From positions 1 through 9,595 of the forward strand of contig JAFARM010000107.1 of NCBI GenBank assembly GCA_019245455.1: DNA of 9,595 nt, read 5' to 3'. A program made the translations under genes and the position numbers. The notes below the pieces were generated by a model that saw only the letters and a program-made list of their open reading frames with translations, was not told the DNA's origin and did not search any database. Source of the stretch: Sphingomonadaceae bacterium (GTDB lineage Bacteria; Pseudomonadota; Alphaproteobacteria; Sphingomonadales; Sphingomonadaceae). Of this stretch, positions 8,951 through 9,595 are shown piece after piece. Each line of letters begins with the position of its first letter. The stretch's first letter is position 1.

Positions 8951-9104
8951 TTCTCCCTCCCCCTCTGGCGCGTAGCGCCAGAGAGCGGGGAGGGCTGGGG
9001 TGGGGGAACCCCCTTGCCGCGCAGGCTGCATCCTCCCGCCCAGGAACCCCCACCCCGGCCCTCCCCGCTCTCCGTTCGCTTCGCTGACGGGGGGGGAGGG
9101 AGAA
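8951..9104. repeat. Inverted pair of GC-rich palindromic repeat units filling the crtI-crtB gap
   Basis: Two copies of one unit face each other. Outer arms (8951-8962 and 9093-9104) are exact 12-base inverted matches. Inner arms (8982-9006 and 9047-9071) match over 25 bases with one mismatch, at 8996. Between them each unit has its own centre: the left forms a perfect 9-bp hairpin with a GTA loop (8963-8983), while the right (9072-9090) has different bases but is again largely self-complementary. The left unit also extends to a longer stem, CCCTCCCC (8955-8962) with GGGGAGGG (8987-8994). This pattern of constant flanks and variable hairpin centres fits a dispersed REP/BIME-like intergenic element. 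It may fold strongly in mRNA between crtI and crtB, but no T-run follows, so I do not call a terminator. Nothing else is evident in the rest of the 8943-9183 gap. Confidence 0.85.
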
Positions 9105-9183: not shown

Positions 9184-9595
9184 GTGACCGACCCCCTCGT
9201 CGCCGCCGCGCGCGCGGCGATCGTGCGCGGGTCCAATAGCTTCGCGCTCGCCAGCCGCCTGTTCGATCCCGTCACGCGCGACCGGGCGACCCTGCTCTAC
9301 GCCTGGTGCCGCCATGCCGACGACGTCATCGACGGGCAGGTCGACGGCTTCGGCCGGGTGGCGGGCGAGGGGACGCCGGCCGAGCGGCTGGAGCGCCTCG
9401 AGGCGGCGACGCGGAGGGCGCTGAGGCTGCCCCCTGTTCCGGGTCATGCTGGCGCAGGCCAGCATCTACCTGTCCGCGAGACGCCCGGCCGGGGCGCTGG
9501 CACGACCGTGGATGCTGGCCTGCGCCAGCATGACGGCGGGCTCGGGGAGGGGACGATCGCTTTCGCCGCGCTCGCCCGCGTCGCCGCCGAGACCG
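9184..9595 (+). CDS. crtB: Phytoene synthase CrtB, N-terminal part; runs off the right edge
   Basis: CrtB condenses two geranylgeranyl diphosphates to phytoene, the first committed carotenoid step, upstream of CrtI and CrtY. The start is GTG at 9184, set by a strong GGGAGG (9172-9177) 6 bases upstream. Early residues fit the family: SNSFALASRLFD (17-28) and YAWCRHADDVIDG (39-51), which contains the first Asp-rich, magnesium-diphosphate-binding motif (D46, D47, D50). Homology resumes with FAALARVAAET (127-137) at the window end. In relatives I know, such as Erwinia CrtB, these blocks are separated by a much shorter loop. Here about 35 extra residues, rich in Gly, Arg and His, lie between TRRAL (80) and FAAL (127). 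Residues 87-117 are encoded by an inverted hairpin repeat pair (9443-9534). The frame stays open throughout. The second Asp motif is outside the window. It is separated from crtI by 241 bases holding another repeat element. Confidence 0.92.
   Translation, partial: MTDPLVAAARAAIVRGSNSFALASRLFDPVTRDRATLLYAWCRHADDVIDGQVDGFGRVAGEGTPAERLERLEAATRRALRLPPVPGHAGAGQHLPVRETPGRGAGTTVDAGLRQHDGGLGEGTIAFAALARVAAET
9443..9534. repeat. Inverted pair of REP-like hairpins translated inside crtB
   Basis: Bases 9443-9466 and 9511-9534 are perfect 24-base inverted repeats, separated by 44 bases. Each arm is itself a palindrome: ATGCTGGC and GCCAGCAT pair over a 4-base GCAG loop on the left (9446-9465), and the mirror-image hairpin lies at 9512-9531. 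Two inverted REP-like hairpins with a spacer is the layout of a BIME. Such elements are normally intergenic; this one lies within an open coding frame. The sequence is unrelated to the repeats at 8951-9104. Confidence 0.93.

Follow-up and report, generated by a model that had tools for sequence, protein, structure and literature searches.

How does a 92-bp palindrome come to be translated as part of a phytoene synthase, and does it sit there as a domesticated insert or as a mobile repeat that the enzyme tolerates? The window—by which we mean the whole 9,595-nt stretch of DNA analyzed here—closes within the 5′ part of crtB, where positions 9443–9534 form an element with perfect 24-nt inverted arms that lies in frame inside the gene. 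The reading frame stays open up to the contig end, 61 nt beyond the element. A full-length CrtB query against the draft assembly found no further part of crtB beyond the window and, because the gene is truncated, its match to the CrtB family model (NF042419) scores under the full-length cut-off. The features on which the argument turns are the following:

9184..9594, plus strand: 5′ part of crtB (phytoene synthase), running off the contig end at 9595 (NCBIfam NF042419 Phyto_syn_CrtB, E 2e-20; Pfam SQS_PSY, E 5e-11).
9443..9534, no strand assigned: head-to-head dimer of CGTC-type REPs, 92 bp, in frame, encoding crtB residues 87–117 (inverted arms, folding, family alignment).
9443..9468, plus strand: first REP unit, with tag GTC, stem ATGCTGGC, loop GCAG, stem GCCAGCAT and tail CTA (family consensus CCA).
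9469..9508, no strand assigned: middle stretch of the dimer, a near-palindrome in the family consensus; the window copy has diverged mainly on the left side (family alignment).
9509..9534, minus strand: second REP unit in opposite orientation, with tag GTC, stem ATGCTGGC, loop GCAG, stem GCCAGCAT and tail CCA.

The left arm (9443–9466, GTCATGCTGGCGCAGGCCAGCATC) is the exact reverse complement of 9511–9534, and each arm holds one 8-bp stem (ATGCTGGC/GCCAGCAT) closed by a 4-nt loop (9446–9465 and 9512–9531). The two-hairpin, in-frame palindrome described in the initial annotation thus stands as drawn. Over its full length the element is 78% self-complementary, and its 92 nt fold at −78.3 kcal/mol as compared with −40.6 (sd 3.5) for shuffled versions (z −10.7; 0 of 200 shuffles as good).

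That annotation had also likened the palindrome to REP/BIME elements, and its dispersal bears this out. In the window's own genome (G000; its five congeners are G001–G005), the hairpin pattern with at most one mismatch occurs at 72 sites and a reversed control at none, which argues against chance. At least 39 near-full-length copies of the 92 bp, plus four partial places, were found among the 40 of 65 candidates scored, and the consensus of the 39 aligned copies is a near-full 92-bp palindrome with sharp ends (GTC...GAC). When relatives were searched (at most 15 candidates scored per genome), 9 of 59 genomes, own included, gave a match at E 0.001: G002, G003 and G004 hold several to many and G001 one weak match, G005 has none at this threshold, and four genomes of other genera carry the family as well, among them G025 with at least 15 matches.

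A broader survey of REPs in G000, which required the GTC tag and used gene calls from a home-made codon model, covered 649 kb on 81 of 430 contigs, 35 of which were picked as family-bearing (34 plus the window), so that densities are biased upward. It returned 150 CGTC-type arms in 83 loci, the main stems being ATGCTGGC (63), ATCCCCGC (57) and ATCCCGGC (17), and a head-to-head pair is present in 60 of the loci. Though 87.6% of the surveyed sequence is called coding, 72 of the 83 loci lie outside gene calls: 43 in co-directional gaps, 20 in convergent gaps, 6 in divergent gaps and 3 at contig edges, set against background gaps (≥30 nt) numbering 234, 51 and 75 for the three orientations, respectively. 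Among the 61 dimers with flanks, length is narrow for each stem (GCTGGC 91–93 bp; CCCGGC 74 bp; CCCCGC mostly 71–72 or 106–111 bp).

The anatomy of the window element fits that of head-to-head dimers of CGTC-1 REPs, as described by Di Nocera et al. (2013; PMC3733652). Specifically, both units bear a GTC tag, preceded by C in the right unit and by G in the left unit of the window copy (C or T precedes GTC at 74% of 122 dimer ends); both have a perfect 8-bp stem beginning with AT and a 4-nt loop (GCAG/CTGC); and the tail is CCA in the right unit and in the consensus of 39 copies, and CTA in the left. Shared with CGTC-1 REPs are the NGTC tag, the AT-start stem, the loop length, the CCA tail, the head-to-head dimers, the placement mostly between co-directional or convergent genes and the presence of some copies within genes; particular to the family here are the stem ATGCTGGC and the 91–93 bp dimer, in a comparison that leaves aside the published stem list (Figure 2). 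The original description gives the CGTC tag of CGTC-1 REPs as unpaired, with TGTC or CCTC variants, and the REPs as lacking a dedicated transposase and as occurring mainly in alphaproteobacteria; it places some CGTC REPs inside genes, many of those being replication and repair genes (PMC3733652). GTAG REPs and REPINs are likewise short paired hairpins dispersed as dimers, yet the window element carries a GTC/CGTC tag in place of GTAG, and no RAYT match was found in the six congeneric genomes, most of them drafts.

S. wittichi, S. alaskensis, S. chlorophenolicum, N. aromatocivorans and E. lithoralis are sphingomonads. CGTC REPs are reported from these five species (PMC3733652), and the idea that sphingomonads might have a palindromic family of their own is not supported, as the window's family fits that described superfamily. 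The same paper equates RPE-4 and RPE-6 of Rickettsia with CGTC REPs. Rickettsia palindromic elements (RPE-1) resemble the present case, on the basis of their description, in being coding palindromes that lie in frame in conserved proteins and also between genes; different here are the free-living lineage, the two-hairpin dimers of 91–93 bp and the use of one linker by different families. A Rickettsia guanylate kinase with a palindromic insert is reported to be active with altered substrate affinity (PMC2229807). Different REPs at about one site are reported in one case, recB of two Xanthomonas species (PMC3733652), and none of the papers listed by a literature search deals with REPs within crtB or from Polymorphobacter. 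We regard the element as a further CGTC REP; what sets it apart from the CGTC-1 REPs described is that REPs of several families appear to have entered one enzyme's loop repeatedly across a clade.

REP loci overlap gene calls in 11 of the 83 cases on the 81 contigs. Three of these calls (C110, C235 and C278) have the element at the N-terminus and were discounted as probable start misannotations, and C170 was dropped as a weak 55-codon call. Seven of the 83 loci in the 649 kb are in frame within genes, namely crtB, mutY, metH, coaBC, pbpC, tatB and an acetate/propionate-CoA-ligase-like gene (named from an NCBIfam match below cut-off), and the recurrence in other genes that the initial annotation had raised as a prospect is thereby found. 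With tatB left out of the comparison, each of the other six has some orthologues without the insert. In coaBC the REP occupies residues 178–202, between the domains Flavoprotein (1–174) and DFP (214–289), and in metH the Met_synt_B12 match is interrupted by the insert and falls into two parts; the mutY, metH and tatB cases lie more than 1 kb from any contig end. The mutY of G000 (L068:2497–3729, minus strand) carries three consecutive CCCCGC-type REP units, 46 residues in all, before the matched NUDIX part.

At the sites corresponding to those of G000, congeners hold varied contents. G002 has a different REP in the CoA-ligase-like gene, G005 has a decayed REP (assigned by eye) in mutY, the metH of G002 has a longer linker with no recognizable REP, and neither coaBC (3 congeners) nor pbpC (2 congeners) has an insert at the G000 site. 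Counting the crtB sites of G005 and G002, a REP or by-eye remnant is thus present at 4 of 20 orthologous congener sites (crtB 5, mutY 3, coaBC 3, metH 3, CoA-ligase-like 4, pbpC 2), whereas insertions spread evenly along coding DNA would be expected at about 0.015 of the sites' total count of 20 (7 loci per 568,767 coding bases, 60-bp sites). Inheritance may lie behind some of the four. In-gene copies are the exception: across 198 kb of G005, in 18 regions of which 14 were picked for REP matches, 27 arms were found, and those in genes are the crtB pair and one in dnaX. This dnaX (DNA polymerase III gamma/tau; L224:11890–13710) includes a REP-coded VIPAQAGTH..MGPGLRRDD stretch.

The crtB linker is six residues long in G003 and ten in G001, and a plain 49-residue segment is found in 93 of the 120 CrtB relatives listed (of 5846 matches); relatives that lack the insert thus exist, in line with the initial annotation. 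G004 has a 19-residue stretch with no recognized REP, and G002 has an apparent single decayed hairpin of GCTGG type (by eye). At the crtB loci read on genome contigs (46 of 80, from partly overlapping genomes), the linker is long only in G002 and G004. In G005, whose crtB rests on homology because the gene caller chose the wrong strand, the linker holds a different 92-bp REP dimer, in frame and with stem CCCGGC. This element is identical at 89 of 92 positions (97%) to a copy at C1:3433772 of the same genome, and similarity between their flanks is not evident by eye; this sequence comparison makes it probable that one is a copy of the other or that a shared source supplied both. After the REP in G005 crtB (L018/L182), a 20-nt piece (the element end plus GATCAAGGGGT) occurs once more, perhaps the remains of a REP that occupied this position before.

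Linker peptides that read as REP-coded appear in 12 of the 120 listed CrtBs, from several families and in two frames, among them RHPGEGRDP..GPGLRRDD, RHPGESRDP..WVPAFAGMT and HAGAGQH..DAGLRQHD and, in another frame, VMLANASTH..WVLAFASMT. The window's own family occurs in another frame in P0037, types A (window) and B (G005) share one reading frame at nearly the same point, the related strains G005 and PAMC 29334 have an identical linker insert, and P0012 is a metagenomic full-length CrtB with an insert of the window type. Of the 13 REP-bearing CrtBs, eleven are represented by protein sequences only, such that their DNA palindromes are deduced, and REP types of metagenomic CrtBs were assigned by eye from the peptides (P0006 is the least certain); the linker count behind the 93 plain segments scores the REP-bearing P0005, P0009 and P0020 as too short, and their linkers are complete in the listed peptides. 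The initial annotation had named residues shared by all close relatives as evidence against a mobile element. This condition applies in part, as some relatives do have inserts at this site, but several of those inserts come from different REP families, a pattern that favours repeated insertion.

We asked the tree whether there was one gain or many, using a quick tree with the linker excluded (built from 74 rows out of 123, with 28 of its 71 inner branches left open). REP versus short linker requires at least nine changes on this tree, short linkers interleave with inserts, and the starred branches force at least four changes of REP state. The REP label is neither clearly clustered nor scattered (7 changes against a shuffled mean of 8.6; 101 of 500 shuffles as low). 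Grouping into one clade is rejected for the 13 REP-bearing CrtBs (p-AU 3e-8), for the two type-B rows (2e-5) and for P0047 with P0048 (0.017), and is left unrejected for the four type-A carriers (0.09), for A with A2 (0.08), for these with P0018 (0.07) and for type C (0.8). A rejected clade excludes a single gain without loss, but not one old gain followed by many losses. Since losses would have had to bring the linker back to about six residues time after time, we disfavour a single old gain with many losses and read the pattern as some four to eight entries of REPs into the crtB linker.

What would let an enzyme take up such a peptide? Structure models of P0001 and P0012, standing in for the truncated window protein, place the insert between two helices as the sole long low-confidence stretch (pLDDT below 50 at residues 93–138 and 85–119, respectively), and the confident core of the P0001 model is related to CrtM-type synthases. 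The insert is thus predicted to be a disordered loop, in keeping, at the level of these two related CrtBs, with the loop that the initial annotation had pictured. Both Asp motifs are kept in all 12 insert-bearing CrtBs. The linker is likely a spot where CrtB tolerates inserted mobile DNA, and tolerated, recurrent insertion is the best reading of it.

We consider it probable that a CGTC-type REP pair was copied into crtB by a trans-acting transposase and has persisted there since its frame stays open across a loop predicted to be disordered. Under this model, some enzyme acting in trans would copy REP dimers, and their insertion would be an HUH-type event on single-stranded DNA. Insertion of this type is not known to duplicate the target. 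Among the 61 dimers, none has a directly abutting copy of 4 bp or more, such that the target duplication looked for at the suggestion of the initial annotation did not appear. Selection would purge insertions that break the frame or the protein core, and survivors would gather in the few permissive linkers that tolerate some 30 residues. The right element end reads TGA in one of three frames (ATGAC as A-TGA-C), which leaves two that can be read through, and both are observed in crtB. The inserted peptide might be neutral or slightly costly and would erode through in-frame deletion; apparent remnants do suggest later in-frame erosion. A functional role of the CrtB insert is not needed by this explanation.

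A RAYT, proposed at the outset as the enzyme to look for, is unsupported as the mover. PF01797 has no match in G000–G005 (0 of 6 genomes, most of them drafts; the G000 draft is 95% complete), and no CGTC unit turned up in the 13 of 17 RAYT loci from other genomes that were scanned under a strict rule (8 of 8 stem pairs), most of these loci being in genomes in which the window family was not found and some ending at contig ends. The flanks of the 61 dimers contain no strong motif (largest column information 0.21 bits). They are G-poor at −13 to −5 on the 5′ side, mirrored on the 3′ side, a weak, purely descriptive asymmetry that might mark the target strand.

Other readings of the crtB linker deserve weighing against tolerated insertion. 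The REP machinery could recognize the linker DNA, by sequence or as a hairpin, so that recurrence would reflect target choice and not tolerance. Several REP families do use this one linker, the 4 of 20 filled congener sites far outnumber the uniform expectation, and the dimer flanks are G-poor; yet the uniform model neglects that most coding positions cannot take 30 residues, some of the four sites may be inherited, the flank motif amounts to no more than 0.21 bits per column, and the coaBC and pbpC sites were struck once only. We hold target choice to be unlikely, and doubtful to the same degree its fuller version, in which CGTC REPs would re-enter a docking loop of CrtB in the Polymorphobacter clade by a targeted single-strand route and dimers would serve as interchangeable in-frame loop cassettes. 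Were the latter true, housekeeping enzymes (CrtB, MutY, a CoA ligase) would receive new disordered peptides at the same sites again and again. Assembly offers a different source of the pattern, since the contig, which the window spans entirely, stops just past the repeat and the rest of crtB was not found in the assembly, as if a short-read assembler had fused crtB with a repeat where the contig stops. However, crtB continues in frame on both sides of the element, with EGTIAFAALARVAAET after it, the independent metagenomic P0012 carries the same insert type at full length, and the genome has six more in-frame cases, three of them (mutY, metH, tatB) well away from contig ends; an artefact is hardly credible.

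Two further readings concern the history of the insert and its role. One has a single ancestral insertion inherited with losses, its stems converted to the active REP family of each lineage. It would account for types A and B sharing a frame at nearly the same point and sits with the unrejected clade of four type-A carriers, but rejection of the 13-member and type-B clades means that many losses to about six residues are required, the window's family is in another frame in P0037, the G005 element has a near-identical counterpart at another place in that genome, and short linkers are interleaved with inserts in the tree. We judge such a history to be very unlikely. The other would have the insert functional in CrtB—in regulation, partner binding or membrane contact—and kept by selection. 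The intact catalytic motifs in 12 of 12 insert-bearing proteins and the identical insert of G005 and PAMC 29334 are what one would then see, whereas the segment is plain in 93 of the 120 relatives listed, and the site, in a region predicted to be disordered, is occupied by peptides unrelated in sequence and frame. Selection for a function is accordingly highly improbable, and the word “domesticated,” used in the initial annotation, is unsupported at a site that differs from species to species.

A clade whose CrtB loop several REP families appear to have entered provides natural replicates for a question that the description of CGTC REPs, which reports no dedicated transposase, left open: what moves them (PMC3733652). 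The clade offers filled, other-filled, eroded and empty sites, together with the 89/92 copy pair in a near-complete genome. With these replicates one can ask directly whether REPs select where they insert or simply persist where they are tolerated, and by what steps a palindrome turns into protein and then erodes. The same process would account for odd linker inserts in CrtB, MutY, MetH, CoaBC, PbpC and DnaX of the clade.

There are two further palindromes in or beside crtB. The crtB of G002 (L113) has a lone REP-like palindrome further along the gene that codes for part of TSDCHARVGGDDDEGHGG, and the congeners compared are without it. Between crtI and crtB, the window (8951–9104) holds a second GC-rich palindromic repeat, unrelated to the REP dimer, with 26-nt arms that are 96% complementary and 13-nt outer arms; it recurs at 15 sites on 12 of the 81 surveyed contigs (window included), 14 of the 15 outside gene calls.
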